The notes under the pieces were generated by a model. It did not search any database and was not told the origin of the DNA. It was given only the letters and a program-made list of their open reading frames with translations. DNA of 47,720 nt from Firmicutes bacterium HGW-Firmicutes-4. Its GTDB lineage: Bacteria > Bacillota > Clostridia > Eubacteriales > Eubacteriaceae. Where the stretch lies: positions 1 to 47,720 of the forward strand of contig PGZR01000047.1 of NCBI GenBank assembly GCA_002841405.1, written 5' to 3'. The position numbers were made by a program, and so were the translations under genes. Below are positions 3,300 to 33,673 of this stretch, one piece after another; the first letter of the stretch is position 1; the number at the start of each line of letters is the position of its first letter.

Positions 3300-3991
3300 T
3301 CCTAAGTAATACCCTTGTCGCACCGGGGATTTTTAAAATGACCGTGGCATTTACCGGAGTAGTAAAACCGGGTCAATTCTTTATGTTACGTGCCTGGGAC
3401 AAGGACCCGCTGCTATCCCGTCCGATCAGTGTTCATAATTACGAACCCGGTCAGCTCACCTTTTTATACCAGGTGGTAGGAAAAGGAACTGAAATCTTAG
3501 CGCGACTTCAGACCGATGATGAGGTGACTGTCCAGGGTCCCTACGGCAATGGTTTTCCGGAAATAACCGGCAACCTTTGTGTGGTTGGTGGCGGCATCGG
3601 GACAGCACCCCTGTATTATCTGGTGCGACACTATCAGGAACAAAACCCCACCGGCAAGTGCCGGGTCTATCTGGGCTTCCGGGATATTGCCTATGGGGTT
3701 GATGCCTTTGAAACGCAGGCAGATGAGATTATTCTCGATATCGGGGGGATTATCACCGACAAACTTGCCGTTTTACCCGGCGAAACCGTGGTAACCTGTG
3801 GGCCGGAAATTATGATGGCAGCGGTGGCTAGCGCCGTGCCGGCTGAGCATACCGTGTACGTTTCGCTGGAAGCCCATATGGCCTGCGGGATTGGTGCTTG
3901 TCTGGGTTGTACCTGCGAAACCCGTTCCGGCAATAAAAAAGTCTGCAAGGACGGCCCGGTGTTTGTCCGTGAGGAGGTCTTTAATGTCTAA
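3290..3991 (+). CDS. pyrK: Dihydroorotate dehydrogenase electron-transfer subunit
   Basis: FAD and [2Fe-2S] subunit that passes electrons between class 1B PyrD and NAD. The order is a flavin-binding barrel with RPIS (44-47), a nucleotide-binding fold with GGGIGTAP (100-107), and a C-terminal iron-sulphur cluster site with Cys at 199, 204, 207 and 219. The 233-residue length is slightly short for the family but complete. The gene overlaps the ends of pyrF (10 bases) and of pyrD (8 bases). The adjacent pyrD confirms the NAD-linked 1B enzyme rather than a fumarate-type one. Confidence 0.94.
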   Translation: MAVILSNTLVAPGIFKMTVAFTGVVKPGQFFMLRAWDKDPLLSRPISVHNYEPGQLTFLYQVVGKGTEILARLQTDDEVTVQGPYGNGFPEITGNLCVVGGGIGTAPLYYLVRHYQEQNPTGKCRVYLGFRDIAYGVDAFETQADEIILDIGGIITDKLAVLPGETVVTCGPEIMMAAVASAVPAEHTVYVSLEAHMACGIGACLGCTCETRSGNKKVCKDGPVFVREEVFNV

Positions 3992-6244: not shown

Positions 6245-7615
6245 TTAATATGGTTCAATTGCTTCAATTTCCTGATGCCAGAGGGCAATACGGTTTCGGC
6301 CGGTTTTCTTGGCCTGATAAAGGGCTTCATCGGCATGTCTTAAGAGGTTGTCAAAGGAGTTTTCATCCATTGGATTTGAAGAGACAACCCCAATTGAAAC
6401 GGTAACAACATTACTGACTGGAGAGGATTTGTGCGGAATACTTAAATTTTGTATCGCTTCTCGTAGCGATTCGGCAACGTTCTGGGCGCCATTAGTATTG
6501 GTATTGGGAAGCAGACAGGCGAACTCCTCACCGCCCCAACGGGCTGCCAGATCCTGGGGCCGTTTAAGGGTAGTCGACAGGGCAGTAGCCACTTTTTTAA
6601 GACAGGAATCGCCCTCCAGATGACCATAGGCATCATTATAAAATTTAAAATGGTCAATATCAAGCATCAGAATCGATAAAATGGTTCCGGATCGCTTCGC
6701 TTTTTTTACTTCCCTGATCATAGTATCGTCGAAACGCCTGCGGTTGGCGATCTGAGTCAGCTGGTCCACGTCGGTATTGATTTTTAACGTGTCCTGATAA
6801 TATTTTAAAGCCAGATGATTTTTGATCTTGGCCTTAATAATCGGGATGCTGAAGGGTTTAGTAATATAATCAATGGCCCCCAAGGTTAATCCAAACTCAA
6901 TATCTGTGGATTCGGTGAGAGAGGTGAGAAAGATTACTGGAATATCCTTCGTTTTTGTGCCCCGATTCAACCGTCGGCAAATTTCATAGCCGTCGATTTC
7001 AGGCATGACAATATCCAATAGGATAAGATCCGGAGGGTCATTGGAATTGCAAATAGCTAAGGCTTCGATGCCGTTGTGGGAAATCACAACTTCATAGTCT
7101 TCAATCAGAGCAGTTTCCATTATTTTAGTGTTGAGCGGAGAGTCATCAACCACCAGAATTTTCTGTCGGGTTGGGCAGAGATGTTCAAGATCGTTATGGA
7201 ACTGGTTTTTATCAAGGTGCTTTCGGACTTCGTTAAGGCCGACGGCAGAGAGCTTTGTGTGGGTGATGTCGGTTCCGGCCACATAGGCGTAATTGTCGTG
7301 GCGATTAAATTCCCAGTCGATGTATCGGTAGCTGCCGTCTTTTGAACGGAAACGGTTAGAAAAAGTAAGCCGGTGGCTGGTATGCAATAACTTCGCAAAC
7401 ACAAAGGCGGTGGCATCGCGGTCGTCGGGGTGAGTGTAATCGATGATATTTGTATCCAACAATTCCGCAGTGGTGTATCCGAATGTTTTTTCCCAGGAAA
7501 TATTTACCTTTTTAAACCATCCATCAATATCTAAAATACATAGAAGACCAAGATTAAGGGAAAAAATGCGGTTGAGAATTTGTTGTTGGTTGTTAGTGGC
7601 AAAAAATTCTTCCAT
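6245..7615 (-). CDS. PAS-REC-GGDEF response regulator, probable diguanylate cyclase
   Basis: Soluble 456-residue protein. Order: PAS sensor domain (about 10-125), receiver domain (152-270) with phospho-acceptor Asp201 in LLDIVMP and a KPF motif near 253, then GGDEF domain (about 285-450). The active-site motif is GGEEF (361-365), and the RPQD inhibitory site (352-355) is present, so activity and product inhibition by c-di-GMP are both expected. No transmembrane segment is seen. The partner kinase is not adjacent. A TATAAT-like -10 lies at 7652-7657 on the minus strand. It is closely similar in layout and wording to the C-terminal half of the hybrid protein at 26.9-29.0 kb, suggesting duplication. 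Confidence 0.9.
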   Translation of the reverse strand: MEEFFATNNQQQILNRIFSLNLGLLCILDIDGWFKKVNISWEKTFGYTTAELLDTNIIDYTHPDDRDATAFVFAKLLHTSHRLTFSNRFRSKDGSYRYIDWEFNRHDNYAYVAGTDITHTKLSAVGLNEVRKHLDKNQFHNDLEHLCPTRQKILVVDDSPLNTKIMETALIEDYEVVISHNGIEALAICNSNDPPDLILLDIVMPEIDGYEICRRLNRGTKTKDIPVIFLTSLTESTDIEFGLTLGAIDYITKPFSIPIIKAKIKNHLALKYYQDTLKINTDVDQLTQIANRRRFDDTMIREVKKAKRSGTILSILMLDIDHFKFYNDAYGHLEGDSCLKKVATALSTTLKRPQDLAARWGGEEFACLLPNTNTNGAQNVAESLREAIQNLSIPHKSSPVSNVVTVSIGVVSSNPMDENSFDNLLRHADEALYQAKKTGRNRIALWHQEIEAIEPY

Positions 7616-14956: not shown

Positions 14957-14963
14957 AAAAATC

Positions 14964-15002
14964 GATCATCAGCAAAAGTGAAATTTTGGGATGATCTTTT
15001 TT
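14964..15002 (+). terminator. Rho-independent terminator
   Basis: GATCATC (14964-14970) pairs with GATGATC (14990-14996), followed by six T. It lies eight bases past the stop of the GGDEF/HD-GYP gene, so the next gene has its own promoter. Confidence 0.8.
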
Positions 15003-15058
15003 ATTTAATCATAAATTTGAAAAGCTGATCTTCAGTAGAAACTAGCTAGGAGATTGTG

Positions 15059-15087
15059 TTACAATGCTAACAAAAGTATGGTATCAT
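15059..15087 (+). promoter_or_regulatory. Possible promoter for the tandem HD/HD-GYP gene
   Basis: TTACAA (15059-15064), 17-base spacer, TATCAT (15082-15087). Both hexamers match the sigma-A consensus at four or five positions. The placement fits a start codon at 15136. Confidence 0.45.
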
Positions 15088-15135
15088 AACAAAATAATTA
15101 TGCACAACTAATGTCTTATGTGGAAAGGAAAAAAA

Positions 15136-16386
15136 ATGGTCTCTTTATTAGAGTTAACCCTTCAATTATCGAGAGCTTCTGACATGGTAAGTCCGGAACT
15201 GAATCATCACCAACGTCTTGTTGCTTATATAACATTTAACCTCGGAGAAGAGTTGAACTTTGATGAGAAGAAACTGAATGAAGTATCCGTTGCAGCAATT
15301 CTCCATGATATTGGAGGATTAAGTATGCAGGAACGGATTAATGTATTGAAATTTGAAGCCATAAATCCCCATCAGCATGCTCGGATCGGATGGCTGCTAC
15401 TAAAGGATTATCGGGAGTTTGCTGAAATTGCCAGGATCATTAAATTCCACCATGTGGATTGGAATAAGGGAGAGGGGCTTAGGTTTTGCGGGGAAACGGT
15501 AATGCTGGAGAGTCATCTTATTCACCTGGCAGATCGGATTGCCACTCTTATATCCCGGGGCGAAAAGATCATTAATCAGAAAGATCAAGTTTTCGAGAAA
15601 ATAGTCAGTGCATCTGGACAAAAATTTAATCCCGACTTTGTCAAAGCTTTTGAACAGCTAAAAGAAAAGGAATATTTCTGGTATGATCTGGAATCCATCT
15701 CCAATGGACGCCGATATTATAAAAAAATCAATTTTAAGGATCAATGTCTGGATATGGACGAATTAATAGGTATTGCTAAGCTCTATGCTCGAGTTATTGA
15801 TTTTAGAAGCAATTTTACAGCGGTTCATAGTGAAGGGGTATCGGCAGTGGCCAAACGACTGGCCCAGCATTTGAGCTGCGACGGACTAACCTGTAAAAAG
15901 ATACAAGCTGCTGGTTATATTCACGATATTGGCAAGCTTTCGGTACCTTCAGAGATTCTGGAAAAGCCAACATCACTTACCCATGAAGAATTTGCTTTGA
16001 TGAAACAGCATACCTACCATACTTTTGTTCTATTGCATCAGGTCCAAGGATTGGAAGAAATCAATGAATATGCTTCCATGCATCACGAGCGCTTGGATGG
16101 AACTGGATATCCGTTTAAACTGACAGGAAAAGAACTTTCACTTGGCGCCCGGATTATGGCAGTAGCTGATATATTTACCGCTGTGACAGAAAATAGACCC
16201 TACCGAAAGGGAATGCAGAAGGATGAGGTAATCATGGTTTTAAAAAATATGGCACTAGATGGAAAAATTGACACAAGAATTGTCGAAACATTGATTACTT
16301 TCTATCAGGATATCAATAAGGCCAGGATAAAAGCTCAGAAAAAGGCTAGAACCCGATATGATGATTTTGCAAAATTACTGGTGTAG
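15136..16386 (+). CDS. Tandem HD / HD-GYP phosphohydrolase
   Basis: A soluble 416-residue protein with two HD modules. The N-terminal module has an HD site (ILHDIGG, near residue 55) and a later HHVDW, but no GYP motif. The C-terminal module has YIHDIGK and HHERLDGTGYP, the complete HD-GYP signature of c-di-GMP phosphodiesterases. I chose the ATG at 15136, after GGAAAGGA, over the in-frame ATG 18 bases upstream. With no sensor or receiver domain, the first module may be regulatory. It follows the membrane GGDEF/HD-GYP gene on the same strand but behind a terminator. Confidence 0.88.
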   Translation: MVSLLELTLQLSRASDMVSPELNHHQRLVAYITFNLGEELNFDEKKLNEVSVAAILHDIGGLSMQERINVLKFEAINPHQHARIGWLLLKDYREFAEIARIIKFHHVDWNKGEGLRFCGETVMLESHLIHLADRIATLISRGEKIINQKDQVFEKIVSASGQKFNPDFVKAFEQLKEKEYFWYDLESISNGRRYYKKINFKDQCLDMDELIGIAKLYARVIDFRSNFTAVHSEGVSAVAKRLAQHLSCDGLTCKKIQAAGYIHDIGKLSVPSEILEKPTSLTHEEFALMKQHTYHTFVLLHQVQGLEEINEYASMHHERLDGTGYPFKLTGKELSLGARIMAVADIFTAVTENRPYRKGMQKDEVIMVLKNMALDGKIDTRIVETLITFYQDINKARIKAQKKARTRYDDFAKLLV

Positions 16387-16479: not shown

Positions 16480-19218
16480 TTAATATTTATCAAATTCTTG
16501 ATCATCGAGAATGATCTCTGACTTATCATAACTCACTTGCTTAACAGCAGTTACATTTTTGTCAACCGCTGTTGCCATGGATGAACTGGGTGTTTTGACA
16601 TTTCTTAGTTTAAAAGCGTCCACCATTTGTTTAAGCATTTCAGCCTGTCCTGATAGTTCTTCACTTGCTGCAGCACTTTGTTCAGCAGTGGCAGAATTAG
16701 TCTGAACCACCTGTGAAACGGCTTCGATTCCCTGGTTGATCTGAGCAATTTCAGAGGCCTGGTCATTTGAAGCGCGGGCAATACTGCCAACCAGATCGGT
16801 GACTTTTTCAATTTGTTTAAGAATCTCGGCCAGACTTACTGCCGTTTCATCGGCAATCCGGGTGCCGATTTCGACCTTGTTGATGGAACCTTCAATGAGA
16901 CCGGTGGTTTCTTTGGCAGCTTCAGCACTCCGGGCCGCCAGGGTTCGGACTTCTTCGGCAACCACAGCAAAGCCTTTGCCGTGTTGTCCAGCCCGGGCAG
17001 CTTCAACGGCTGCATTAAGAGCCAGGATATTAGTCTGGAAAGCGATATCATCAATGACCTTGATGATTTTAGAGATATTGTTTGATGAGGCATTGATTTC
17101 GCTCATGGCGGACACCATTTTGACCATCTGGGTATTGCCAACCTCAGCATTGGAACGAACGTTGATGGCTAGTTCGTTAGCTGCGTTGGCATTCTTGGCG
17201 TTACGTTTGGTTTCCGAAGCGACCTCTTCAATTGACGCCGTCAGTTCCTGAATCGAGCTGGCCTGTTCAGTAGTACCTTGCGACAAGGCCTGACCGCCGT
17301 CTGATATCTGCTGGGCGCCGATTTCCACCTGACTGGCCGCAACATTGATATCTGATAGTGTTACGCTCAAACTAGATGCAATTAGGTTCAAGGCTTTTTT
17401 TATCGCCAGAAAATCGCCGCAATAAAGATTAGTAATTTCCACGTCGAAATTCCCGTGACTCATTTCTTCAAGGGTTTGGGTTATTTCTTCCACATAAGCT
17501 CTCAGGAATTCAATGGTCTGGTTCATATCATGCTTGATTTTTCCGTGTTGACCTTGAAAGTCGCCTTCCATGGAAGTATTGAGATTTCCTTCAGCTAGTT
17601 CATTCAGTGTGGCTGAAGCGGCTTGAATCGGATTGATAACAGCATCCAGGGTCTGGTTGAAACCTTCAATAACGGTTGCATATTCGCCCTGGAATTTGGT
17701 GATGTCACCACGGTTGTTTAAATCACCGGCGATGGCTATCTGGGCCATGGTTCTGGTTTCTTCAACCAGCATCATAATAGTTTCAGTCATACCGAGAAGA
17801 GCAGGTACCAAATGGTCATTTTCGCTGCGTTTGCCGATACTGCGGAGGAAGTCCAGGTCGCTTAAATCACCATTGCGGATATTGGTGGATACATCAACTA
17901 TGCGACCAAGCTGGGCGTGAACGCCGTTGATGGATAATGCTATTTCGCCAAAAATACCTTCATAATGCCCCTCGATCGTTTGGGTTAAATCATTTTTGTT
18001 CATGAGTTTAAGGATATGATCGGCATCGGACAAAGCGCTTAATCCATCCAGACAGGCGTTAAGATTGTTTTTAATTTCCCGGAAGTCGCCATAATATTCA
18101 TCGGTAATTTGGGGTGGAATTTCTCCCTTTCCGATACGTTCAATATATTCGGCTGCCACATTAAGAGGACCGACAACCGCATCCAGGGTGTTGTTGACGC
18201 CGGCGACGATCTCCCGAAAGCCGCCGTTGAAGGCATCAGCATGTCCCCGTGTATCCAGACGGCCTTCTACAGCTGCCTGAGAAAGAGTATTAGCCTCGGT
18301 GACCAGGGCGCGAATCGTTTCGATGGTTTTTTTCAAAGCTGGTGCGATTTCATCCTCGGAATCAGTGGTGTCCACGTTCATGGAGACATCACCGTCAGAT
18401 ATGCGGTTCATCGTGCCGATGACAAGGAACTGGAGAGCGTCGGCCATGTGATCCATGGCGGTTGCCATTTCGCCGACTTCGTCCTTAGCATCCATATTGA
18501 GTCGCTTGCTTAAATGTCCTTTGCTCATCTCCTGAATCATAAGGCTAGCCTTGCGAAGTGGTCCGCAGATCAGCGAAGTGAGTAATAATCCGAGTGCAAC
18601 GGCTAGAATCATGCTGATCACCATAATGATTGTCATCGTGGTGGTTGCGCTGGCTGCTTGGGCGATATTATCTTCAGATTTGGCCTGGCCGTCGGCAAGT
18701 TTCAGAGAAGACAGATTATCGATAGCAGACTGCATGGCGGCAGTAGCTTTACCGGCGGCCCCATCAGGGCTCATCACGTTAAAAGCTTCTGTGTCCTGGT
18801 TTTGAGTTGCCAAGTTCATAACTGATTCAAGATGTTTATTGTATTCAGTTCGGGCAGATTCAAAAGTTTCAAAAGCCTGTTGCATTTCGTCAGACTGAAT
18901 CGTTTTCTCATATTCTCCGGCCAATTCGTCGATTATCAGCTGGTCTTCAGCTATGTTCTTCTTAATTGACTGAATACGGTCAGAATCGTTTGCAAGGATC
19001 AGATCTCGCAGATTCACGCGCATCATCTGAAAAGTGGTTGATATTTGACCTACTTGAGAAATGGGGACGGTCATTTTTTCGTAAAGTTCCTGGTCCGACT
19101 GCTGAAGTGACCAGGTGTTAACGATGCCGATGAAACCTACAACACCGACTAAAAGAGCAATTATAATGAAAGATGTTAATAGTTTTGTTTTAATGTTAAA
19201 ATTTTTTAACCAATTCAA
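16480..19218 (-). CDS. Methyl-accepting chemotaxis protein with four-helix-bundle sensor and poly-HAMP array
   Basis: A 912-residue receptor. Order: TM1 (about 13-33), a mainly helical extracellular region of about 160 residues that looks like a 4HB_MCP sensor, TM2 (about 197-220), canonical HAMP, about eight HAMP-like units, and a signalling hairpin with the conserved [19 protein letters not shown] tip. The tail ends ILDDQEFDKY. From the HAMP onward it aligns unit for unit with the receptors at 7.7 and 19.8 kb, while the sensor is unrelated. I chose the TTG start at 19218 because GGAGG lies eight bases upstream; a longer GTG start would translate through that site. A weak TATAAT-like -10 lies at 19451-19456 (minus strand). 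Confidence 0.92.
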   Translation of the reverse strand: MNWLKNFNIKTKLLTSFIIIALLVGVVGFIGIVNTWSLQQSDQELYEKMTVPISQVGQISTTFQMMRVNLRDLILANDSDRIQSIKKNIAEDQLIIDELAGEYEKTIQSDEMQQAFETFESARTEYNKHLESVMNLATQNQDTEAFNVMSPDGAAGKATAAMQSAIDNLSSLKLADGQAKSEDNIAQAASATTTMTIIMVISMILAVALGLLLTSLICGPLRKASLMIQEMSKGHLSKRLNMDAKDEVGEMATAMDHMADALQFLVIGTMNRISDGDVSMNVDTTDSEDEIAPALKKTIETIRALVTEANTLSQAAVEGRLDTRGHADAFNGGFREIVAGVNNTLDAVVGPLNVAAEYIERIGKGEIPPQITDEYYGDFREIKNNLNACLDGLSALSDADHILKLMNKNDLTQTIEGHYEGIFGEIALSINGVHAQLGRIVDVSTNIRNGDLSDLDFLRSIGKRSENDHLVPALLGMTETIMMLVEETRTMAQIAIAGDLNNRGDITKFQGEYATVIEGFNQTLDAVINPIQAASATLNELAEGNLNTSMEGDFQGQHGKIKHDMNQTIEFLRAYVEEITQTLEEMSHGNFDVEITNLYCGDFLAIKKALNLIASSLSVTLSDINVAASQVEIGAQQISDGGQALSQGTTEQASSIQELTASIEEVASETKRNAKNANAANELAINVRSNAEVGNTQMVKMVSAMSEINASSNNISKIIKVIDDIAFQTNILALNAAVEAARAGQHGKGFAVVAEEVRTLAARSAEAAKETTGLIEGSINKVEIGTRIADETAVSLAEILKQIEKVTDLVGSIARASNDQASEIAQINQGIEAVSQVVQTNSATAEQSAAASEELSGQAEMLKQMVDAFKLRNVKTPSSSMATAVDKNVTAVKQVSYDKSEIILDDQEFDKY

Positions 19219-19691
19219 GTTATCTTCCTCCGGTTTAAATCTGGGGTACACAAATAGCGGACGGAGTCCTTACTTACAGGTATGATGATAAAAAAAAAGC
19301 AAAATACTTTGAAATGTTCTTCACACAAATAATTTGAACAGACCTGGGTTAGGACTATTTTTTGTTTTTATTTATTTCGCGGAACACCACCTAACAGATT
19401 GAATATTTAATCATATTTATTGATAAATCTATTTGTTCAAATCCATAGTTATTATAAGGGATAATACTGTAAAATGAAACAAGTAATTTTGAAAAAGCGA
19501 TGATATTCTTACAAAATGCAAAAAAAACATACAATATTCATACAAATTTATTATCAAATGTCAATATACTAAAAAACAGATCGAAGTAATAAAGATGGTT
19601 GATATAAGTATTAGGGTGAAATAGGAATACTGGTTAAAATACTTTTGAGTAACCTGCGATTACGGAACAAATGTATAACTATATATTAAAT
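19219..19691 (-). other. Intergenic region upstream of the second chemoreceptor
   Basis: About 470 bases of AT-rich sequence with no credible coding frame. It holds the ribosome-binding site at 19227-19231 and a possible -10 (TATAAT on the minus strand, 19451-19456). I see no other structure until the terminator at 19692. Confidence 0.6.
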
Positions 19692-19779: not shown

Positions 19780-22700
19780 TTAGTATTTATCATTATCTGA
19801 ATCATCTAATGAGATCCACGGTTCGGGTTGCGTAGGGGCTGCTATCACTGGTGCAGCCGTAGCAATTTTTTCAATTCGGGCTGTTTTTTCAAAATGGCTG
19901 CTACTGTTTTGACCTTTGAGTTTGAAGGTGCTCATCATATGCTTAAGAACTTCGGCCTGACCGGACAGCTCCTGGCTGGAAGCAGCACTCTCTTCGGCAG
20001 TAGCTGAGTTGGTTTGAACAACGTTCGACACCTGCTCAATTCCTTTGGTAATTTGAGCGATTTCTGAAGCCTGATCATTGGAAGCCCGGGCAATATTGCC
20101 AACCAGACCGGTTACTTTCTCAATTTCATTGAGGATTTCTACCAGACTTGCAGCAGTTTCATCGGCAATCTTGGTACCAACCTCTACCTTGTCGATAGAG
20201 CCTTCAATCAGGCCAGTGGTTTCCTTAGCCGCTTCAGCGCTTCTTGCCGCCAGAGTTCGTACTTCTTCAGCAACAACGGCAAAACCTTTGCCATGCTGTC
20301 CCGCCCGAGCCGCTTCGACAGCGGCATTAAGAGCCAAAATATTGGTCTGGAAGGCGATATCGTCAATCACCTTGATTATCTTGGAAATATTATTGGAAGA
20401 CTCGTTAATTTCAACCATAGCAGTTACCATTTTTGACATTTGCGAATTGCCTACTTCTGCGTTGGTTCGAACCTCAATAGCTCGTTCGTTGGCTTCGTTG
20501 GCATTTTTGGCATTACGTTTGGTTTCAGCGGCCACTTCTTCAATCGAGGCGGTAAGTTCTTGAATGGCACTGGCCTGTTCAGTTGTCCCTTGGGATAATG
20601 CCTGGCCTCCGTCGGAGATTTGGATGGCGCCTGCTTCTACTTGTCCGGCAGCATCATCAATTTCCTTCATAACCTCGCTTAAATGGGTGGTTATATCATT
20701 AATTGCAAGCTTGATGGCTACAAAGTCGCCATGATAATAGGTTTTAATTTCTTGACTGAGATCACCTTTACCAATACGTTGGAGTATGGCCGTGATTTCC
20801 GTAACATAGTTTTTGAGGAAATCAATGGTACGGTTCATATCTTCTTTAATCTTACCATGTTGTCCTTTGAAATCACCATCCATGGTGATATTCAGATTAC
20901 CTTTGGCCAGTTCATCAAGTGTTGTAGAGGCGGCCTGAATCGGCTCGATCACAGCATCTAAAGTCTGGTTAAAACCAGAAATAACCTTGGCATATTCGCC
21001 CCTGAATTTAGAAGGGTCGCCGCGATGATCTAAATCGCCTTCGACGGCCAGTTGAGCCATTTCATCGGCTTCGCTGACCAGAGAGTGAATGTTATCAATC
21101 ATTTGAATCAGACTTGGAATAAACTCATCCTCTTCGCTTCGTTTTCCGATGTTCACCAGTTCGTCATAATCATTCATATTACCGTTAGATACATTATTAA
21201 CGATGGAATGAATATAGTTAAGCTTCCAATGAATTTCGTTGACTGAGGTTGCCAGATCACCAAAGACACCCAAATAGTTGCCTTCCATTTTAGCAGAGAA
21301 GTCATTGACATAGAGTCGGTGGAGTACTTCACCAGTCTCTGTTAAAGCGCCCAGACCGTCGATGCAGGCGTTGATGTTATTTTTCAGATCATTGAAATCA
21401 CCCTTGTATTCAGTGGTGATTTTTGGTGGAATCAGACCGTTACCGATGCGTTCAATCGCTTTGTTAGCAACCTTGAGTGGTTTAACAAAGGTATTGATAA
21501 CATTATTTAGAGAAATAATCATGTCTTTGTAGGCACCAGTATATTCGTTGGTATTTCCACGGTAGTTGAGTTGACCTTCTGATGCGGCAGTACCGAATTT
21601 TACAATGGCATCGTGGACTCTGTTCATTTCTGACAAAACAGCAACCATTGAATAGGAGATTACATCATCCTCAGAACGGGGTATAATTTCAACTTCAAAA
21701 TCACCCTGAGACATCCGTTGAGCAGCCGTTGCCATTCCTTTATTGTTCTGGATCATGGTTTCAAAGGAAAGCATTAAATCACCAATTTCATCATAGGTGG
21801 TGACTTCAATTTCCACATCCACTTTTCCCACCGCTACCTGATCAGCCACTTCTTTGAGTCTGATGATGGGTTTGGCAAGCTTTTGTGCCATGACATAGGC
21901 AGCGATGCCTCCAATTAAGAGAATCATCAATGAAATTAGCAAAATCAAATTTCTCAGATTAGTGATCGGAGCTAAAACGTCGTCTTCGTATTGAGCAACA
22001 ATCAGGGTCCAGTTCGTTCCGGGAATAGGCGCAGTTGAGCCAATCTTTGTTTCACCATTAACGGAATAATTCAGCATCCCGGTTGTTTGGGTTCCCACCT
22101 CTTTAAGGGCCAAACCAAAACTTTTCCAGGTGCCATCTTTTTCTATATCATCATATACATTCACCTGATCGAGGATCATTTGATCATCTGGGTGAGCCAT
22201 CATCGCTCCGTTTTCATTAACTACAAAGCCGTATTGTCGCTCGCCATCACCCATGGCATTGGTGGTATCTTTTAAGAAGGTGGGGTCTCGTCGACCAACC
22301 AGCAAGCCAACGACCTGACCATTGTTTTTGATAGGAGCCACGTCAAATACAACCGGTTCTTTGGTGACCTTACTGATAGCCACATCAGAAATTGCCAGTT
22401 CCCCTTTGAATCCGTCTTCGTACCAGAATTCGCCCCAGGAATCAAACTCGCCGCCACCTTTAATGTACTTAGCATGACCATCAAGGTTCATCACGGCAAT
22501 ATCCTGGTAACCCAATCGTTCCACGTCTCCGGCAACAGCATCAAGCTGAGTTTGCCAGTCCATAGTAGTAACCCGTGCTCGGGAAGCCACTTCACTTAGG
22601 GTGGACAGGTTTCCAGTTATAATTGCACCAACGTGTGAAGCTCCTTCGGTAGTGTATTTTTGTGCATCGTTATTGGCCTGGTCGGTTAACGCTGAAGCGC

Positions 22701-22902
22701 CCAAATTGACTGCAATAATACCCAGAGACAGGACCGCCACAGCAATCAGAGAAACAGTGAACAGCAGCAGTTTTGTGGATATTCGGGATTTGCGGTGAGC
22801 TTTAGCCTGAATATGTCCAGCAGGATACGCAGTAATCTCTTGTACTGTATCTGTAACATGATTTGTTTCCGGATCCAACAACGGTTCTTGATTTTCGTTC
22901 AT
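19780..22902 (-). CDS. Methyl-accepting chemotaxis protein with double-Cache sensor and poly-HAMP array
   Basis: A 1040-residue receptor, the largest of the three. A roughly 40-residue cytoplasmic N-terminus precedes TM1 (about 43-66). An extracellular dCache-like region of about 250 residues follows, with typical strands such as [14 protein letters not shown] and [17 protein letters not shown]. Then come TM2, HAMP, about eight HAMP-like units and the signalling hairpin. The tail ends [10 protein letters not shown]. dCache domains commonly bind amino acids, amines or carboxylates; the ligand here is not known. The ATG at 22902 follows GGAAGGGG; the longer in-frame start at 22971 has no ribosome-binding site. 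A TATAAT-like -10 lies at 23032-23037 (minus strand). Confidence 0.93.
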
Positions 22903-23335
22903 AAATAACCCCTTCCAAATATAATCTTTTGGTTTACCGTGACAAAAAATTTCAATACAGTTTGTTATCACGGATATGACTTAGTAAAGTATAAATGCTT
23001 ACACACACCATAAGTAGATGCATACCGTATTATTATAGCGTTTTTTACTGCAAATATCTACTGTTTAATAACTAAAATTTACCATATTGTGCCTAATTTG
23101 ACACATTACTAAAGTGAAAAACCATGGATACTAATATTTTGTTGCTTATTTAAATTTGAAGGTGAAAACACTGGTTAAACGAACATGATCTTGATACAAT
23201 ATAGATTACACCGAATATGGTACCGGTATTATATATTTGTGGTTAGAGTGAAAGACATTTCAATTGATGACAATCGGAGAGGCTGAGAAAGAAGAGTGCG
23301 ACTTGATATAAATCCAGTCGAAGGGGGATGGTTTA
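22903..23335. other. Divergent intergenic region
   Basis: About 430 bases between the third chemoreceptor (minus) and the FIST-GGDEF gene (plus). It contains a minus-strand -10 candidate at 23032-23037 and AT-rich promoter-like sequence near 23190-23240. No small gene or RNA structure was identified. Confidence 0.5.
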
Positions 23336-25098
23336 GTGATCAGCAAAATAATTACAATTTATTCAGAAGAAATGTTAAAGAAATACTTGCAGACCGATGA
23401 GTTTAAGCGTCATATAAAATCATCCATTTCAGTATTTGTACAAATATTTTCTTCAGACCGGGATCCCTCTTGGATCATGAGTATTGACGCCGCGCTTCGG
23501 ATGACGATACCCGTGGCAGTGGTTGTCGGCGTTACGACCATGGGAGAAATCGCAGAAGGCCGGCTGTTTATTAATACTACGGTGATTTCTTTGGCATTTT
23601 TCGAGAAAACACGAGTACAGGGGTTCTTAATCACGTGTGATAATGACAACGAAAAAGATCTGGGAAATAAATTTTCTGGAGAAATAGAAAAGACCTGCTC
23701 GGAAATCGCAGGGGTTATGCTTCTGGCAACGCCTTTTACGATGAATGTTTCTGATTTCTTAATGGGTTATTCGTCAGGGAGAAGCGGAAAATACCCCGTA
23801 TTTGGAGGCGGTGCTGGCGATTACAAGGCTGTACAGGAGCCGCTGATTACCTTAAATGGAAATTATACATCAAAGGGGGTACTGGCTGTCGTTTTTATGG
23901 GAAATGACATCCAGATTGATATGCATACCTATCTTGGTTGGCAACCATTAAGTAAAGAAATGATCATTACCGAAACCGATGGCCACTGGGTGAAGAAGAT
24001 TGATAATATACCGGCGTTTGATGTCTTTCATCGCTATTTGGATATTCAGAATGACAAGGATTTTTTTCTAAACGTTTTGGAGTTTCCATTGTTACTTAAA
24101 CGTAATGGCATACAGTATGCTAAGGCTCCTATGGAGGTTAATTCGGAAAATGCCATCAAATTTATTACCGATCTGAAAGAAGGGGACCGTTTGTATCGGT
24201 TACGGTAATCCCTCGGTCATGATCGAAAAAGCTAATGATATCCAAAACCGTATTCAGACTTTTAATCCTGAGGTGATCTTTCTTTACTCCTGTATTTGCC
24301 GGCGTTTTCTACTGCAAAGCGAGGTAGATCTGGAAACCAGCCCATTCGAATCCATTGCTCCCACATCAGGGTTTTATACCTATGGGGAAATTTATTCGCA
24401 GGGTAAATATGTCATGCTCCTCAATGCCACTATGGTGGCAGTCAGTATGAAAGAATGGGATGGGAAAAAACTTGCGGAAGGAGTAGATAACCAGATTGAA
24501 AAACCAAAATCATTGGATCCGTTCACCAGTCAGCATACCCGGATTATTTCCCGCCTGGTTAATTTTATCGGAGTGGTCACTGACGAGCTGGAGGAAGCTA
24601 ACACAGAAGCTAGACGTTTGGCTGAACGTGATTATCTGACTCAAGCCTATAATCGAATGAAGGCCCATGAATTCATGAAAGATGAAATAAAAAGAAGCGA
24701 ACGTTACGGTCTTCAGTTTTCTATTATCATGCTGGATATGGATTACTTCAAAAAGGTGAATGACACGTACGGACATAATCTGGGTGATGAAATACTCGTT
24801 CAGCTGGTCAGATTAATTTCTCTTGAAATTAGAACGATTGATATGCTGAGTCGATGGGGTGGTGAGGAATTTCTGATCATCATGCCGATGACTGACCGAG
24901 ATGGGGCTAAGATAACGGCTGAACGGATCCGTACCATTGTGGAACAGACCCAGTTTACAAAAGGGCTAAGTCAAACCTGTAGCTTTGGAGTTGCTGCTTA
25001 TAAAAAAGGGAGAAACCATGGAGGCATTAATCGATCGGGTTGATAAAGCCCTTTATGAAGCCAAAATCAGGGGGCGAAACTGCGTGATAGCCAAGTAA
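23336..25098 (+). pseudogene. FIST-domain diguanylate cyclase, interrupted by two frameshifts
   Basis: Three frames together encode one protein of about 585 residues: FIST N and C sensory domains (FIST proteins are thought to bind small ligands such as amino acids) and a C-terminal GGDEF domain with RWGGEEF. The first frame (GTG 23336, after AAGGGGG) stops at 24208 inside FIST_C. The protein continues as YGNPSVMIEKAND in the +1 frame (24201 onward). That frame derails near 25000 at a run of six A and three G and stops at 25043. The true GGDEF C-terminus (GETMEALIDRVDKALYEAK) lies in the next frame, ending at 25098. Removing one base at the second site restores a perfect domain. It may be a pseudogene or sequencing error; the piece from 24219 could still make a GGDEF fragment. 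Confidence 0.8.
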
Positions 25099-25120: not shown

Positions 25121-25693
25121 TCAACTGACACTTATAAAGATTCTATTTCGGCCCATTTCATTGGCCATTGACAAAGCCTGTTCGGCTTTTTTCAAAAGCG
25201 TGTCATAGGAAGTCTCGTCAGTGAGAATGGACGTCACTGTGCCAATCGAAACGGTAACGATTTCAGCTACCGCAGATGCGGTGTTGGGAATGGCTAACTC
25301 CAAAACCTTTGTTCTTACTTCTTCGGCTATTTTTGCAGCACCAACAGCGTCAGTGTCTGAGAGGATACAGGCGAATTTTTCATCGTTCCATCGGGCAGCC
25401 AAATCTCCCGATCTTTTCAAAGTGTCTCTCAGTAAAGATGCAACTTGGCGCAGGCAGTTATCACTAGACAATTGGCCGTAGGTGTCATTGAGGTTCTTAA
25501 AATAATCGATGTCAATCATCAGGATCGACAAATAACACACCGTTATTTTGGATTTGTTGATGGCCTCGGTGAACATTGCATCAAATTTTCGGCGGTTAGC
25601 AATCTGGGTTAGGGTGTCCCGGTCGTTACTATTTATTTCTGAAACGTCCTTTTTCATGTCATCTTCGCTGTATGGATCGCAAAATTTATTCAT
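25121..25693 (-). CDS. Degenerate GGDEF-domain protein, probable non-catalytic c-di-GMP binder
   Basis: A 190-residue stand-alone GGDEF domain with a short N-terminal leader and no sensor. The fold markers DTLTQIANRRKFD and MIDIDYFKNLNDTYG are present. The active-site motif is RWNDEKF instead of RWGGDEF, losing both glycines that hold the substrate GTP. The RSGD inhibitory site just upstream is kept, so binding of c-di-GMP is more likely than its synthesis. The ATG at 25693 has an AAGGA about ten bases upstream; an in-frame ATG at 25732 is possible. It is convergent with the broken FIST-GGDEF gene, 22 bases away. Confidence 0.82.
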   Translation of the reverse strand: MNKFCDPYSEDDMKKDVSEINSNDRDTLTQIANRRKFDAMFTEAINKSKITVCYLSILMIDIDYFKNLNDTYGQLSSDNCLRQVASLLRDTLKRSGDLAARWNDEKFACILSDTDAVGAAKIAEEVRTKVLELAIPNTASAVAEIVTVSIGTVTSILTDETSYDTLLKKAEQALSMANEMGRNRIFISVS

Positions 25694-25942
25694 GTTCGTG
25701 GGGTCCTTTCCGGTTCTTTGAAAGCATATCATCGTTCATAACATTTTATACTTGATAAGGGTTGGATGTAAAGCTTTTTAATCATAAACCAATTTATGAG
25801 AAGCAATGGAGTTTGTGTTTAAATTAAATAAAGAAGGGTAAATATTATCAAATTGAAGGCGAGTTGAAACACAAAGGTTTGCAATGAAAACAGCACAATA
25901 ATAACAACAGCTTAGGTAACCAAATAGATAGTGAGGAAAAAA

Positions 25943-26877: not shown

Positions 26878-29016
26878 CTATTTTTTGTAAGCAAACACTT
26901 GGTTTCGACCTGCTTCTTTAGCTTTTATCAGGGCGGCCTGGGCCTGATCAAGGAGGGCTTCAAAGGAATCATTGCCAGAATTATCAAGTGAGCGGATCGC
27001 TGAGGTTACGCCCAGTGACATGGTGACAACTTTTTCTCCGGGGGACGACAAGTGTGGAATCCTCAGATTCAGCACTGCCTTTCTGATGTTTTCAGCTACA
27101 TGGATGGCTCCCTTCAAATTAGTATCAGGGAGCAGACAGGTGAATTCCTCACCCTGCCAACGGGCAACCAGGTCACCAGCACGTTTTAATGTTTTTTTAA
27201 GTGCATAAGCAACTTCCCGGAGACAATCATCACCTTCTAAATGTCCATAGGTGTCATTATATGACTTAAAATAGTCGATATCTAATCTAATCACCGACAG
27301 CGGAGAATTATTGCGCCTGGCTTTGCGAATTTCGATGGACAGCATTTCTTCGAATCGGCGACGGTTGGGAATTTGAGTTAAGGCATCAGTGTCGGCAGTT
27401 ATGCTGAGGATTTCCCGATAATGCTTGAGTGCCAGTTGATTTTTGATTTTTCTTTCCACACTGGCAATATCAAAGGGCTTGGAAATATAATCCACAGCAC
27501 CGGATCGTAAGCCGTAGGCTTCATTTTCTGTATCACTCAGGCTTGTCAGGAAAATAACCGGAATATCCATGGTGCTTTCTTCTAGTTGGATTTGTTTGCA
27601 GACCTCATAGCCGCTCATATCCGGCATGCTCAGATCAAGCAGAATGATGTCTGGAGTTGGAATCTGTTGAACAATAACTAAGCCTTCTTTACCACTGTTG
27701 GCTAATAAAACTTCATAGTTTTCGACCAAAGCTTGGGCAAGCAATTGGGTATTTTCAAGAGAGTCATCAACGACTAAAACCCTCGGTCTCTTTTTGGTAA
27801 GCGTTTGGTCATAAGATTTAGCCTGATCATATCTAATTTGCTCAATCGCCAGAAGTTCCTCAGCTTTAAGTCGGATGTTCTTATTATACATGGGCAATAC
27901 CCGCCCGGACATACTATGGTCGCTTTTCGAATTCTGGGTATCATCTCTGAGCAATAAAACGTGAAATGCAAATTCATAGCCGTTTTCGCTGTCCCGGGTT
28001 GCAGAAAACTTGCCATTCATGGTTTCAACCAGTGTCTTTACAAGCTCCAAACCAAAATTTAAGTTGTTTTCATTGATGTTGCCATTGGTATCATTGACCG
28101 AAAAAGGATCATCAGAAACACCTTTAAAGTGAGCAATACCCGAAGTTTTCAGATTAAAATATATTTTAAAAACAGTTTTGTCGGTATTCTCCGGGGTCGC
28201 TTCAATAGTGATTTTACCCCGCTCTAGGCATTTAATGGCATTGAGGATTAAATAGGAGATTATCTGTTTCAGCCGCTGTGGATCACCCATTACTGTCGGT
28301 GGAATTTTCGGATGGATAGCTAAATCGATGGTGATGTTATGACGTTTGGCGCTGACGATTAGCGGGATAATAGCATCTTCGACCGTGTCGAAAAAATTAA
28401 AAGCAATCACATCATGGCCAGTCTGATTGCTTTTTTCATTTGCCAGAATTCCGCTGATCAGGTTCTCCAGAAACTCAGAAGACAGTCGGATATTTTCCAG
28501 ACAGATATTCTGCTCCGAGATGGATGTAGTTTTTCCAATTAACTGCAAAAACAGGGACAAACTTTCCAGTGGTTCCTGAAGTTCATTGGATAAAAGAGAA
28601 ATCAGTTGATTCTTTGAAAACTCGGCGGATTCAGCTTCTTTTTTGGCATGATAGAGTTCGGTTAGATCTTTGGCACAACTGTAAATTAACCCATCAATCC
28701 ATTGAAACTGCCAGGTTACAAATCGATAGAAGCCATTGTTTGAACGCAACCGGCTGGTTAGTGTCAGACTCTCATTGCCTGTAGAGAGCTTTTTGAGAGC
28801 TAGAATCAAGCTTGCCACATCATTGGGATGGATAAAGTCAATGAGATTTTTACCGCTAAGCTCTGGAGTCAGGTAGCCCAACTTGGTTTCCCAAACCCGG
28901 TTTGATTTCATAATTCCCCCCCGCTCATCGATAATGCAGAGAAATTCCATGCTAATGGCAAAAATTCCGTCCAATTGCTGACGGCTTTGTTCATTGAGAG
29001 AAAAGAGATCGTTCAT
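26878..29016 (-). CDS. Hybrid PAS - histidine-kinase-like - REC - GGDEF protein with degenerate catalytic motifs
   Basis: A 712-residue soluble protein. Order: PAS (about 15-120), kinase dimerisation helices (130-190), ATPase-like domain (205-355), receiver (412-530, phospho-acceptor Asp461), GGDEF (540-710). The H-box reads LSNELQEPL, with Asn144 where the phosphorylated His should be, so autophosphorylation in the usual way is impossible. The cyclase motif is QGEEF (621-625) instead of GGEEF, while the inhibitory site RAGD (612-615) is intact. The PAS, REC and GGDEF parts resemble the protein at 6.2-7.6 kb, so this looks like a fusion with an inserted kinase core. It may act as a phosphorylation- and c-di-GMP-responsive scaffold; residual cyclase activity is possible. 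Confidence 0.88.
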   Translation of the reverse strand: MNDLFSLNEQSRQQLDGIFAISMEFLCIIDERGGIMKSNRVWETKLGYLTPELSGKNLIDFIHPNDVASLILALKKLSTGNESLTLTSRLRSNNGFYRFVTWQFQWIDGLIYSCAKDLTELYHAKKEAESAEFSKNQLISLLSNELQEPLESLSLFLQLIGKTTSISEQNICLENIRLSSEFLENLISGILANEKSNQTGHDVIAFNFFDTVEDAIIPLIVSAKRHNITIDLAIHPKIPPTVMGDPQRLKQIISYLILNAIKCLERGKITIEATPENTDKTVFKIYFNLKTSGIAHFKGVSDDPFSVNDTNGNINENNLNFGLELVKTLVETMNGKFSATRDSENGYEFAFHVLLLRDDTQNSKSDHSMSGRVLPMYNKNIRLKAEELLAIEQIRYDQAKSYDQTLTKKRPRVLVVDDSLENTQLLAQALVENYEVLLANSGKEGLVIVQQIPTPDIILLDLSMPDMSGYEVCKQIQLEESTMDIPVIFLTSLSDTENEAYGLRSGAVDYISKPFDIASVERKIKNQLALKHYREILSITADTDALTQIPNRRRFEEMLSIEIRKARRNNSPLSVIRLDIDYFKSYNDTYGHLEGDDCLREVAYALKKTLKRAGDLVARWQGEEFTCLLPDTNLKGAIHVAENIRKAVLNLRIPHLSSPGEKVVTMSLGVTSAIRSLDNSGNDSFEALLDQAQAALIKAKEAGRNQVFAYKK

Positions 29017-29055: not shown

Positions 29056-29754
29056 TCAGACCCCTGGTGACCAGGTGTTCTTGATCTTAACGTTCCGTTC
29101 TTTAAATTCAGGAACAATGGTTTTAGTATTTCCGACCTTGTCTTTAAACCGTTTGATGATTCCAAAGTCATCTTTGAAATGCATGGGAATCAGGACCTTG
29201 GGATGAAAGGTTTCAATAAAGTATTCGCCAGCCTTATAAAAAGAATCGCCCAGCCGGGGATCGACTGGAACAAAGGCAAATTCCATCGGTAAGTTTTTCA
29301 TCCTGTCCAGTTCAGCTTTAAAGGTCTTTTCTTCCTGGGCCGGATCGATGTTTGGTTTTTCGTTGGTGTCCCAGTCCCACCAATTCAAATCTCCGGCGTG
29401 AAAAATCCGGTGAGAATTGGTAGCGATGTAAAAGGAGATACCCTGATCGGTGGAACCGAAGGTCTTAATATCCATGCCACCCAGAGACATGTGCTGGTAC
29501 GGGCCGATAGCGTGGGTTTTGTGAGTGGACGCCTTGGGGATATCGTCGCTTAAGATATAGGTGGGATGGTAAACCCGGTCGGTTGAAAAAATATCAGCAG
29601 TGTAGTGATCGCCGTGACCATGCGACACAAAGAAAAAATGGGGGATACCTTTGCGGAGGAGACTGGTTGGGATATGCGTAAAGCAATCAAAAATTAAAGT
29701 CTTATCCTCCAACTGAATTAAAAAGCCGCTATGATGCAAATGGAAAATTTTCAT
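29056..29754 (-). CDS. MBL-fold metallo-hydrolase
   Basis: A 232-residue metallo-beta-lactamase-fold protein. The metal motif is SHGHGDH (His45, His47, Asp49, His50), with a further ligand His in IFHAGDLNWWDWD near 120 and a C-terminal HFK near 195. It resembles UlaG-like hydrolases of unknown substrate. An AGGAGG lies nine bases before the ATG. It follows the hybrid signalling gene on the same strand, 39 bases upstream of it in transcription order, so the two may be cotranscribed. Confidence 0.87.
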   Translation of the reverse strand: MKIFHLHHSGFLIQLEDKTLIFDCFTHIPTSLLRKGIPHFFFVSHGHGDHYTADIFSTDRVYHPTYILSDDIPKASTHKTHAIGPYQHMSLGGMDIKTFGSTDQGISFYIATNSHRIFHAGDLNWWDWDTNEKPNIDPAQEEKTFKAELDRMKNLPMEFAFVPVDPRLGDSFYKAGEYFIETFHPKVLIPMHFKDDFGIIKRFKDKVGNTKTIVPEFKERNVKIKNTWSPGV

Positions 29755-29988: not shown

Positions 29989-32900
29989 GTGATAAAACGA
30001 ATTTTTGTAGAAAAAAAAGAGTTTGAAGTAGAAGCCAAATCGCTGACACATACCTTTCAACGAATTTTAAAGATTGAGAAGCTTGAATCCATGCGTATTC
30101 TGTACCGATACGATGTGGAAGGCGTGGCGGATGGTTTATTCGATCAGATTATAGGCACCATTTTATCTGAACCCAATGTCGATCAGGTATTTCAAGGAGC
30201 TCTTCAGATTATGGATGATCAGAAAATCTTCGGGATTTCCTATTTGCCCGGTCAATATGACCAGCACGGCGATTCTGCGATTCAGTGTATTCAGATCGTG
30301 TCCGGGGAACGGGCTTTGGTTAAGGTAGCAAAAATTGTTGTACTCACAGGAGCATTAACTCAAAATGAATTCGACAGCATCAAACACTATATGATCAATC
30401 CGGTGGATTCTCAGGAAGCCAGTCTGGAACCTTTTGTCACCCTGGTTGATGAGGTGCGGGAGCCGGAAGATATCAAGCCGCTGGATGGTTTTATTGCTCT
30501 GAATGCTGACCAATTGGAAGCTTTTCGGATGGACAATGGATTCGCCATGACCACTGAAGACATTCAGTTTGTCCAAAATTATTTTAATAAAGATGAAAAA
30601 CGAAATCCGACTATTACGGAATTAAAGGTAATTGATACTTACTGGTCGGATCATTGTCGTCATACGACTTTTTTGACCCAGATTAAGCAAGTGCGGTTCC
30701 AGGGGGATGATCCCATTTCACAAGCGATGAAACTTGCCTATGACGACTATTGTCAGACCAGAACGGAACTATACGGTGAAAATTCCGAACGACCAATGAG
30801 TCTGATGGATCTGGCCGTGATTGGCACCAAAGCCCTCAAAAAGCAGGGGCGCATACTGGATCTGGATGAATCGGAAGAAATCAACGCCTGCAGCATTAGC
30901 ATTGTCGTCGATCATGATGGTATCGACGAAGAATGGCTGCTGATGTTTAAGAATGAAACCCATAACCACCCCACCGAAATTGAGCCTTTCGGAGGTGCTG
31001 CCACCTGTTTGGGCGGGGCCATCCGGGACCCCCTTTCGGGACGAAGTTACGTTTATCAGGCGATGCGTGTTACCGGAGCCTGGGATCCCCGGGCAGCGAT
31101 TGAAGACACGCTCCCCGGCAAATTACCGCAACGTAAAATTTCGACGGAAGCTGCTCATGGTTACAGTTCTTATGGAAATCAGATCGGTTTAGCTACCGGT
31201 CAGGTAACCGAAGTTTATGATCCCGGTTTTTTGGCCAAACGAATGGAAGTCGGTGCTGTGATAGCAGCGGCTCCCAAAGAAAATGTCATCCGCGAACGTC
31301 CCACCCCCGGTGATGTGATACTACTGGTTGGCGGACGAACCGGACGGGATGGCTGTGGTGGTGCCACGGGCTCATCCAAGGCCCATACTGAAGAATCGAT
31401 TCTGGAAAGTGGTGCTGAGGTTCAAAAAGGGAATCCGGTGGAAGAACGAAAAATCCAACGGTTATTCAGAAGCAAAAAACTGGCGAATTTAATTAAACGC
31501 TGTAACGATTTTGGTGCCGGTGGGGTATCGGTGGCCATTGGCGAACTGGCAGACAGTCTGGAAATCGATTTGGATAAGGTGCCAAAGAAATATCGATCCC
31601 AAAGATGTGGCTACTTTTATTACCATGGGGCATGCTGAAAATCTTGAGATTACCCCAGTAGCTATCGTTACCGATTCTGGCCGGCTGATCATGAAATGGC
31701 GGGGCGCAGAAGTTCTGAATATCTCCCGGGCATTTCTGGAAACCAACGGCGCACCGCAATTTATTGATGTGGCAGTTGAGTCGCCAATAGAAATAAATAG
31801 CTCAATAAAAACAGCGGATCAAGGTCCCATAAATGATGAACAATTTGATTTTATTAATATGATGACCGAAACGCTCAAAGACTTGAATGTAGCTAGTCAG
31901 CGGGGCATGGTGGAAATGTTTGACTCAACGATTGGCGCCGGCACCGTGGCCATGCCCTACGGCGGCAAAAACGCGCTGTCGCCAATGGATGGTATGGTGG
32001 CCAAGATCCCAATGATTCATGGCGACACGACCACCTGCAGTATGATGTCTTTTGGCTATAATCCGGTCATTGCCAAAAACAGTCCCTTTTTAGGCGGGAT
32101 GATGGGAGTGCTTGAATCCCTGTCGAAATTGGTTGCCATGGGCGGCGATTATAAAAAAGCCCGACTCAGTTTCCAGGAATATTTTGAACGATTGGGCAAA
32201 GAACCGGTTAAATGGGGCCGACCTTTTGCAGCGCTCTTGGGCGCTCATCAGGTCCAAGCGGCGATGGGAACTCCAGCCATCGGCGGTAAGGACAGTATGT
32301 CGGGTACCTTTGGGGAACTGACTGTACCACCAACCCTGATTTCCTTTGCGGTAGCGACATCCCATGTGGATGCGGTGATCACCAGTGAGCTTAAGTCCAC
32401 TGAGTCACTGGTGCAATTATTCACCCTGCCTTTAGACAAAAATGGTATACCGGAATTAACGGTGGTTAAAGCCGTTTATGATATCATCATCAAAGCTAAT
32501 CAGGAAGGCAAAATCTTAAGTGCCAAAACCATTGGCTACGGCGGTCTGGCCGAAGCCGTGGCAAAAATGGCCTTCGGAAATGGTATCGGAGTTACTCTCA
32601 ATGATCGGATTGACCCCGCCTTTTTGTTTAAACCGTTATATGGCAGTATTTTAGTCGAAAGTTTTGAAATTATAGAGGGATCAACCCCGATCGGGAAAAC
32701 CAATGATACCGGCGAAATCGTTTATGGCAGTGATGCCATCACGATTGATGAATTGGTTGAAGTTTGGGAAGCGCCGTTGCGTTCAGTATATCCAGAAAAA
32801 GCGGAAACCACTGGTGCAGTTGAAACCCTAAGCTTTAAGGCAACACCGATTGTTTACAAAAAAGAAAAACAGGCAACACCTCAGGTATTCATCCCGGTAT

Positions 32901-33673
32901 TCCCGGGTACCAATTGCGAATACGACTCAGCCAAAGCCTTTGAAAATGCCGGCGCAAAATCGGTCACCACCATTTTTAGAAATCAGTCAGCTCATGATAT
33001 AAGCCACTCCATTGACGAAATGGCCGCGCATATCAGAGCATCCCAGATGATTATGATTCCCGGAGGCTTCAGTGCCGGGGATCAGCCCAACGGTTCTGGG
33101 AAATTTATTGCCTCGGTGTTCAGAAATCCCAAGATGATGGATGCTGTCATGGATTTACTTAATAACCGGGACGGTCTGGTGCTGGGAATCTGCAATGGCT
33201 TCCAGGCGCTGATCAAGCTGGGACTGGTGCCCAACGGCGAAATCTGTGCAATCACCGAGGAGATGCCGACTTTGACCTTTAACACCATTGGCCGGCATGT
33301 GTCCACCATCCCGATGACTCGGATCAGTTCGAAGCTGTCACCATGGTTAGCCAATACCAGCGTGGGCGACATCCACCGTATGCCCATGTCTCATGGGGAA
33401 GGTCGATTTGTAGCCAGTGATGAGGTGCTGAAAACCCTCATCGAAAACGGTCAAATCGCCACTCAATATGTAGATTTTAATGGCGAAGCCACCCTTGATG
33501 GCCGCTTCAACCCCAACGGATCGGTTTTTGCAGTGGAAGGCATTACCAGTGTGGACGGACGGGTACTTGGAAAAATGGGTCACTCCGAACGGATCGGGAA
33601 GAATCTCTATAAAAATATTCCCGGCAATATGGATCAGCAGATCTTCAAAGCCGGCGTCAATTATTTTAAATAA
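29989..33673 (+). pseudogene. purL: Phosphoribosylformylglycinamidine synthase (large single-chain form), frame broken by an internal deletion
   Basis: Fourth enzyme of IMP synthesis: FGAR plus glutamine and ATP to FGAM. The N-terminal part (GTG 29989, after AAGGTGG) has SDHCRHTTF, NETHNHPTEIEPFGG and GGRTGRDGCGGATGSS. It derails after VPKKY at 31593 and stops at 31638. The protein resumes one frame on with DPKDVATFI at 31595 and runs to 33673 with a complete C-terminal glutaminase (NCEYDSAKAF, catalytic GICNGFQ, final HGEG). About 20 conserved residues that normally join the two, including an SESQERM-type segment, are missing. No active enzyme is expected unless the gap is a sequence error. 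It is the first gene of the pur operon. Confidence 0.9.

Follow-up and report, generated by a model that had tools for sequence, protein, structure and literature searches.

A receiver-GGDEF protein of Acetobacterium with a predicted pseudo-histidine kinase core and an altered GGDEF motif

The window analysed here, a stretch of 47,720 nucleotides, is contig C28 of a 3.73-Mb genome in 225 contigs that is 86% complete. Its features of interest (Table 1) lie in a locus in which a hydrolase-like gene is followed by the gene of a 712-residue protein, a gene that by eye is flavodoxin/ferredoxin-like, a degenerate GGDEF gene, a FIST/GGDEF gene, chemoreceptor genes, more genes, another chemoreceptor gene and the PAS-REC-GGDEF gene at 6245-7615 (the neighbour, below), the whole being flanked by purine and pyrimidine genes. 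Three chemoreceptors (7688-10432, 16480-19251 and 19780-22971, minus strand) cluster with the c-di-GMP genes, and each contains HAMP and three HAMP_2 stretches. The genome as a whole has 80 GGDEF matches in 3.7 Mb, which makes for a large c-di-GMP repertoire. The window gave no Rfam match to known RNA families at the gathering score.

Table 1 Features of the 712-residue protein, its gene and related genes of the window
Feature	Position	Strand	Basis
712-aa protein, PAS - pseudo-HisKA/HATPase - receiver - degenerate GGDEF	26878..29016	-	ORF with ATG start and Pfam
PAS domain, residues 24-107	28696..28947	-	Pfam match spans 24-96
HisKA-like dimerisation helices, residues 134-192	28441..28617	-	21.8 bits, below the Pfam cut-off of 26.9
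Asn144 (AAT) at the phosphoacceptor His position	28585..28587	-	alignment
Glu148 at H+4; Thr/Asn there in HisKA enzymes, needed for phosphatase activity	28573..28575	-	
HATPase_c-like domain, residues 244-353	27958..28287	-	Pfam 33.9 bits, above the cut-off of 26.4
Receiver domain (Response_reg), residues 413-524	27445..27780	-	Pfam
Asp461, intact predicted phosphorylation site of the receiver	27634..27636	-	
GGDEF domain, residues 541-706	26899..27396	-	Pfam
I-site RAGD, residues 612-615	27172..27183	-	five residues ahead of the A-site motif
QGEEF instead of GGEEF, residues 621-625	27142..27156	-	
Related PAS-REC-GGDEF protein, RWGGEEF, predicted active cyclase	6245..7615	-	
Second degenerate GGDEF, stand-alone, RWNDEKF, RSGD kept, same GGDEF subfamily	25121..25732	-	
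Metallo-hydrolase-like gene directly upstream of the 712-aa gene	29056..29754	-	weak NCBIfam metal-dependent hydrolase match, under cut-off

The first-pass annotation had described a hybrid protein with Asn for the kinase His and QGEEF for GGEEF, its receiver Asp and c-di-GMP inhibitory site intact, and all of this was borne out. The H-box reads SNELQEPL, with N144 at the position of the His in the active kinases of the same genome (SHEIRTPL or a near variant), the A-site reads RWQGEEF, with Gln621 replacing the first Gly, and both D461 and R612-A-G-D615 are present. The damage to the kinase is wider than had been reported: the G1-box Asp is Thr, the G2 glycines are lost (GGTGLGL to NNLNFGL) and the H+4 residue is Glu; the N-box Asn is retained. 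Of the 20 HisKA proteins with His in this genome the alignment comprised 17, together with four from relatives and nine of 11 orthologs, and the losses are read from it directly. In CrdS and its relatives a Thr or Asn at H+4 is reported to be required for phosphatase activity (PMC3510030).

As 20 of the 22 HisKA matches in the genome retain the His, a chance loss is unlikely. The other exception is a second pseudo-histidine kinase of different architecture (C58:8382-9518, minus strand, at L105:1045-2184). It has 379 residues, SNEIHAPL, lost G1 and G2 boxes and, by eye, membrane segments and a nearby gene resembling an efflux adaptor; relatives of it occur in all 19 Acetobacterium genomes, and in one G008 copy the sequence is still SHDIRTPL.

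When residues 1-393 were searched against 61 genomes, orthologs of the 712-residue protein turned up in 11 of the 19 from Acetobacterium, an acetate-making genus, and in none of the 42 genomes outside it, two of which (G040 and G048) matched in the PAS part only. A search of 391 genomes of the class, scoring at most four candidates per genome, found orthologs only in G000, G001 and G009, all Acetobacterium; all 15 listed matches that are not orthologs (E 1e-30 or better) have SHEIRTP and intact G1 and G2 patterns. A contig search gave 10 loci, nine of them orthologs or pieces (two from one MAG) and one a distant match (26%); this search was not exhaustive, G009 and G010 not being among its matches. 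Nine copies are complete open frames, a contig end truncates the G015 copy inside the receiver, and the G003 copy is interrupted by TAA at residue 148 and lies in pieces on two MAG contigs. The eight Acetobacterium genomes without the gene include some that are incomplete, as well as G011, where the flanking genes are in place.

At the His position the 11 copies have N (seven), T (two), A (one) and H (one), the sole His being that of G003, with its stop four codons downstream. The G1 Asp is replaced by T in 10 copies and L in one, GxGLGL occurs in none, and H+4 is E in nine, A in one and a stop in one. Since the N-box Asn is retained in 10 of the 11, some nucleotide binding is possible. Where the GGDEF domain is reached, in 10 copies, the first GGEEF position is E in seven and Q, S or D in one each, and GG is found in none; the motif is further altered to EGEAF in G010 and G018 and to SGQQF in G009, with loss of acidic residues. 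The receiver Asp and the RAGD I-site are each present in 10 of the 10 copies reaching them.

Whole-gene dN/dS was 0.12-0.19 in eight ortholog pairs (Nei-Gojobori; the pair with G009 was saturated), and hence selection maintains the protein on the whole. Values for the parts were 0.07-0.45 (HisKA and HATPase), up to 0.44 (linker) and, for the GGDEF part of the closest pair, G010/G018, 0.93 on very few changes. A decaying remnant, in which a fused cyclase-kinase drifts once its function is lost, would account for the varied residues at the lost positions (N/T/A and Q/E/S/D), for the broken G003 copy and for the missing genes, but it fits poorly with these dN/dS values, the nine complete open frames, the conserved neighbours and the invariant receiver Asp and I-site, and we consider it very improbable.

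Sequencing error was a legitimate worry, given apparent indels elsewhere in the window. The purL frame (29989-33673, plus strand) changes near 31590 and is short of about 20 codons present in relatives, the purL of G001 and of G010 being one frame of 1249 residues. The FIST-GGDEF gene is split into 23336-24208 and 24219-25043 (plus strand) with its C-terminus off frame, by an assembly error or because the gene is broken; in six relatives it is an open frame of 590-600 residues. As the source of N144 and Q621, sequencing error was rejected because both losses recur in the orthologs. Orthologs in 11 of 19 genomes, in a conserved neighbourhood, thus argue against both sequencing error and plain decay.

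The fold of the kinase region appears to be kept. An AF2 model of residues 105-372 (30 rows; pLDDT 79.9, pTM 0.73) has a two-helix hairpin and a CA-type fold, its lid (about 194-213 of the model) being of low confidence; a full-length model was poor (pLDDT 43.4) and was left unused. Solved structures matching the kinase-region model include the ETR1 catalytic domain (Z 18.7, rmsd 1.9, 141 aligned), GacS (Z 18.5, rmsd 4.9, 221 aligned), RetS (Z 18.0, rmsd 5.6, 193 aligned), DivL (Z 16.1, rmsd 7.7, 210 aligned) and many ordinary kinases. Compared with HisKA enzymes, then, the protein lacks the His, G1 (DxGxG) and G2 (GxGLGL) and has the predicted DHp and CA fold. The absence of the catalytic residues in the orthologs, the predicted fold and the purifying selection together make the reading as a pseudokinase, put forward in the first-pass annotation, well supported at the level of sequence: the His, the G1 Asp, G2 and the phosphatase residue are gone in 10 of 10 unbroken copies.

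The presence of GacS, RetS and DivL among the structural matches, together with 20 other His-bearing HisKA matches in the genome as possible partners, would suit a RetS- or DivL-like kinase regulator, with the DHp domain contacting another protein in trans, a kinase or a response regulator, and c-di-GMP acting only to tune this. However, the matches of the modelled region speak for fold, not function, no partner kinase gene was recognised within the window, and the phosphatase residue is gone from every unbroken copy. We regard this reading as improbable.

Loss of key residues had been claimed for both catalytic modules and is seen in both; for the GGDEF domain loss of cyclase activity is likely, though short of certain, as variants at the first position can be active. 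The protein has the phosphorylatable receiver Asp and RxxD I-site of PleD-type proteins and lacks the GG(D/E)EF A-site, although its own copy retains the second Gly, Glu623, Glu624, the I-site and the domain motifs DxD, ND and GD. Of 72 aligned GGDEF domains of the genome (the eight weakest or most partial of the 80 matches were left out) 20 depart from [GAS]G[DE]EF, and about 24% of GGDEF sites are reported to be degenerate in general (PMC3974145). Non-canonical motifs being this common in the genome, the GGDEF change alone is unremarkable, and loss of the kinase His (20 of 22 kept) is the rarer event. What is noteworthy is that the GGDEF motif change recurs in the orthologs jointly with loss of the His.

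The main rival reading is that the protein is still a diguanylate cyclase, controlled through receiver dimerisation and tolerant of QGEEF or EGEEF, with the kinase module alone being dead. The intact residues of its own copy fit this, as does selection on the GGDEF part, which is mostly strong. VCA0965, with AGDEF, is an active cyclase; the authors also cite activity for ECA3270, an SGDEF enzyme, and warn that the rules vary between enzymes (PMC3974145). On the other hand, all 19 substitutions were made at the first position of VCA0965 and most abolished motility inhibition; activity is reported for A, G, H and M, with Q and E not among the active residues (PMC3974145). Moreover, the two EGEAF orthologs and the SGQQF ortholog have lost acidic motif residues and GG is found in no copy. 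We therefore judge retained cyclase activity unlikely, while taking it more seriously than any other rival.

The ends of the protein had been noted to resemble the neighbour encoded at 6245-7615, and they do: identity is 37% in the PAS domain, 49% in the receiver and 53% over REC-GGDEF. Within the genome, the PAS domain and the receiver each have their closest counterpart in that protein (the next PAS match having an E value of 4.8e-4); for the kinase module the best matches are ordinary hybrid kinases, with 26-29% identity among the matches listed. In a GGDEF tree the 712-residue protein, the 6245-7615 type and the 25121-25732 type form one group (98/98) away from seven of the eight other GGDEF proteins of the genome in the tree; the eighth, C60, joins inside the group on a long branch that the program flagged as unsure. 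The group contains two degenerate lines, that of the 712-residue protein (94/84) and that of the 25121 type (100/100). The latter, a protein of 203 residues (minus strand), is faster evolving (43-75% identity), and the canonical motif is absent from all eight copies read, a count outside which the G001 and G011 copies lie. The neighbour and its relatives share the PAS and REC-GGDEF source of the 712-residue protein and also have an I-site (RPxD), but they have no kinase module and read RWGGEEF (12 of 12 PAS-REC-GGDEF proteins of this type). These sequence relations fit a gain of the kinase module by a PAS-REC-GGDEF ancestor; the alternative, its loss on the line of the 6245-7615 type, is also compatible with them. 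In this tree the duplication seems to be older than the divergence between G009 and the remaining carriers, though support at the fork (94/84) is just under the level starred in the tree.

It had also been proposed that the neighbour is the competitor or target of the 712-residue protein. Obligate pairing is unsupported, since G009, a single-contig genome, carries the 712-aa gene alone and three genomes carry the neighbour type alone. In G009 no neighbour match was found at E 1e-50 besides the 712-aa gene itself, and the site of the neighbour is occupied by an open frame of 390 residues that by eye is aminotransferase-like. Over the 19 genomes nine have both genes, two the 712-aa gene only (G009 and G018, the latter an 81% complete MAG), three the neighbour type only and five neither (Fisher p 0.074, without tree correction). 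Among the carriers with regions read, the gene neighbourhood is shared apart from individual absences: G007 and G012 have no FIST/GGDEF gene in the locus, and G009 has neither the chemoreceptors nor the neighbour. The hydrolase-like gene is present in 19 of 19 Acetobacterium genomes and stands beside the 712-aa gene in 11 of 11 carriers. In G011, where the 712-aa gene is gone, the hydrolase and flavodoxin-like genes are directly adjacent. Also missing from that genome are the neighbour, the 7688-type and 16480-type chemoreceptors and the HD-GYP gene; the HD-GYP gene is missing from G001 too. The G011 gaps (L125) lie at 3931-3991 for the 712-aa gene and, 11 kb away, at 14911-15184 for the 6245-7615 type and its chemoreceptor.

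These distributions bear on another rival, in which the protein forms mixed dimers with the GGEEF neighbour or similar cyclases through receiver or GGDEF contacts, as a dominant-negative or tuning partner. Membership in one GGDEF subfamily (98/98), the 49% identity of the receivers and the absence of both genes from G011 are in line with this, and degenerate GGDEF domains of E. coli are reported to make heteromeric contacts (PMC5635695). However, the double loss in G011 is unspecific and lends weak support to a link, since chemoreceptor genes of the locus are missing there too. The co-occurrence has a p value of 0.074 before correction for the tree, G009 and the incomplete G018 have no neighbour match, and three genomes have the neighbour type alone. 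Such mixed dimers seem quite unlikely to us.

Degenerate GGDEF receptors are already known, and so are pseudo-histidine kinases; the sequence of the 712-residue protein combines features of SgmT and DivL. Like SgmT of Myxococcus xanthus, it has a sensor, kinase core, receiver and C-terminal GGDEF domain with a degenerate A-site and an intact RxxD; in SgmT the intact I-site is reported to bind c-di-GMP, which localises the protein (PMC3509222). In SgmT, however, the sensor is a GAF domain, the kinase is active (H336) and the motif is GGGVF (PMC3509222), whereas the 712-residue protein and its orthologs have PAS, a kinase core that by its residues has lost His, G1 and G2, and Q, E, S or D for the first Gly. 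It thus matches the SgmT type in having, behind a kinase-receiver core, an A-site that is degenerate and an I-site that is intact, and departs from that type in its kinase. With DivL of Caulobacter crescentus it shares a pseudo-histidine kinase of DHp-CA fold, a replaced His and PAS input, and DivL is reported to bind DivK~P and prolong its lifetime without kinase activity (PMC4211667). In DivL the residue is Tyr, and the response regulator acted on, DivK, is a separate protein (PMC4211667); our protein and its orthologs have Asn, Thr or Ala at this site, have lost G1 and G2, and carry receiver and GGDEF in the same chain. The best NCBIfam match is the PleD equivalog PRK09581, a family of REC-GGDEF cyclases that likewise have a receiver and a GGDEF domain with an I-site, but the score of 243.2 bits is below the curated cut-off of 474, the A-site is altered and a kinase-like module precedes the receiver. 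PopA, also of C. crescentus, is not known to have a kinase-like module. It is described as a response regulator with a degenerate GGDEF domain and an intact I-site that serves as a c-di-GMP receptor (PMC3509222). A pseudo-histidine kinase, an intact receiver and a degenerate GGDEF domain in one chain were not found together in the titles and abstract starts searched, which covered few subscription papers; in literature mentioning both Acetobacterium and c-di-GMP neither word was found in titles or abstracts.

The explanation we favour, at a probability of about 0.5, is a c-di-GMP receptor that is gated by its receiver and has a pseudokinase as scaffold; the role of the protein is probably that of a receptor or scaffold rather than an enzyme. 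It would be a PleD-like response regulator (PAS-REC-GGDEF) in which a histidine-kinase core lies between PAS and receiver; that core would have turned into a non-catalytic scaffold, and the GGDEF domain would have become, or be becoming, a receptor for c-di-GMP. A separate histidine kinase would phosphorylate Asp461. The DHp helices may hold the dimer and, by analogy with DivL and DivK, the DHp/CA surface may dock its own or a foreign receiver, no phosphate being moved. The RAGD I-site, as its conserved residues suggest and as in SgmT and PopA, would bind c-di-GMP. Conformation, location or partners could then be set jointly by the PAS signal, the state of the receiver and c-di-GMP, in a locus with many chemoreceptor and c-di-GMP genes. 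The integration of phosphorylation and c-di-GMP suggested by the first-pass annotation is supported to the extent that the receiver Asp and RAGD are kept in every ortholog reaching them. Against the receptor-scaffold explanation stand the cyclase activity that first-position variants can have, the largely kept GGEEF residues of the protein itself, the kept N-box Asn, the His of the broken G003 copy, the dN/dS of 0.93, on very few changes, in the GGDEF part of G010/G018 and the absence of the gene from eight of 19 genomes. Nor did the analysis turn up a cognate kinase or a partner.

A more specific and rather doubtful proposal, again by analogy, is that the dead DHp-CA core holds the phosphorylated receiver of its own chain in a clamp, making it more stable much as DivL prolongs the life of DivK~P, and links this state to c-di-GMP bound at the I-site. 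If so, the protein would be a coincidence detector or short-term memory in a single chain, without enzyme activity. More generally, if the receptor-scaffold explanation is true, Acetobacterium has a two-component and c-di-GMP protein that is apparently devoid of enzyme activity and yet retained by selection, and with it one could test directly if the core of a histidine kinase is able to sense a phospho-receiver within its own chain.
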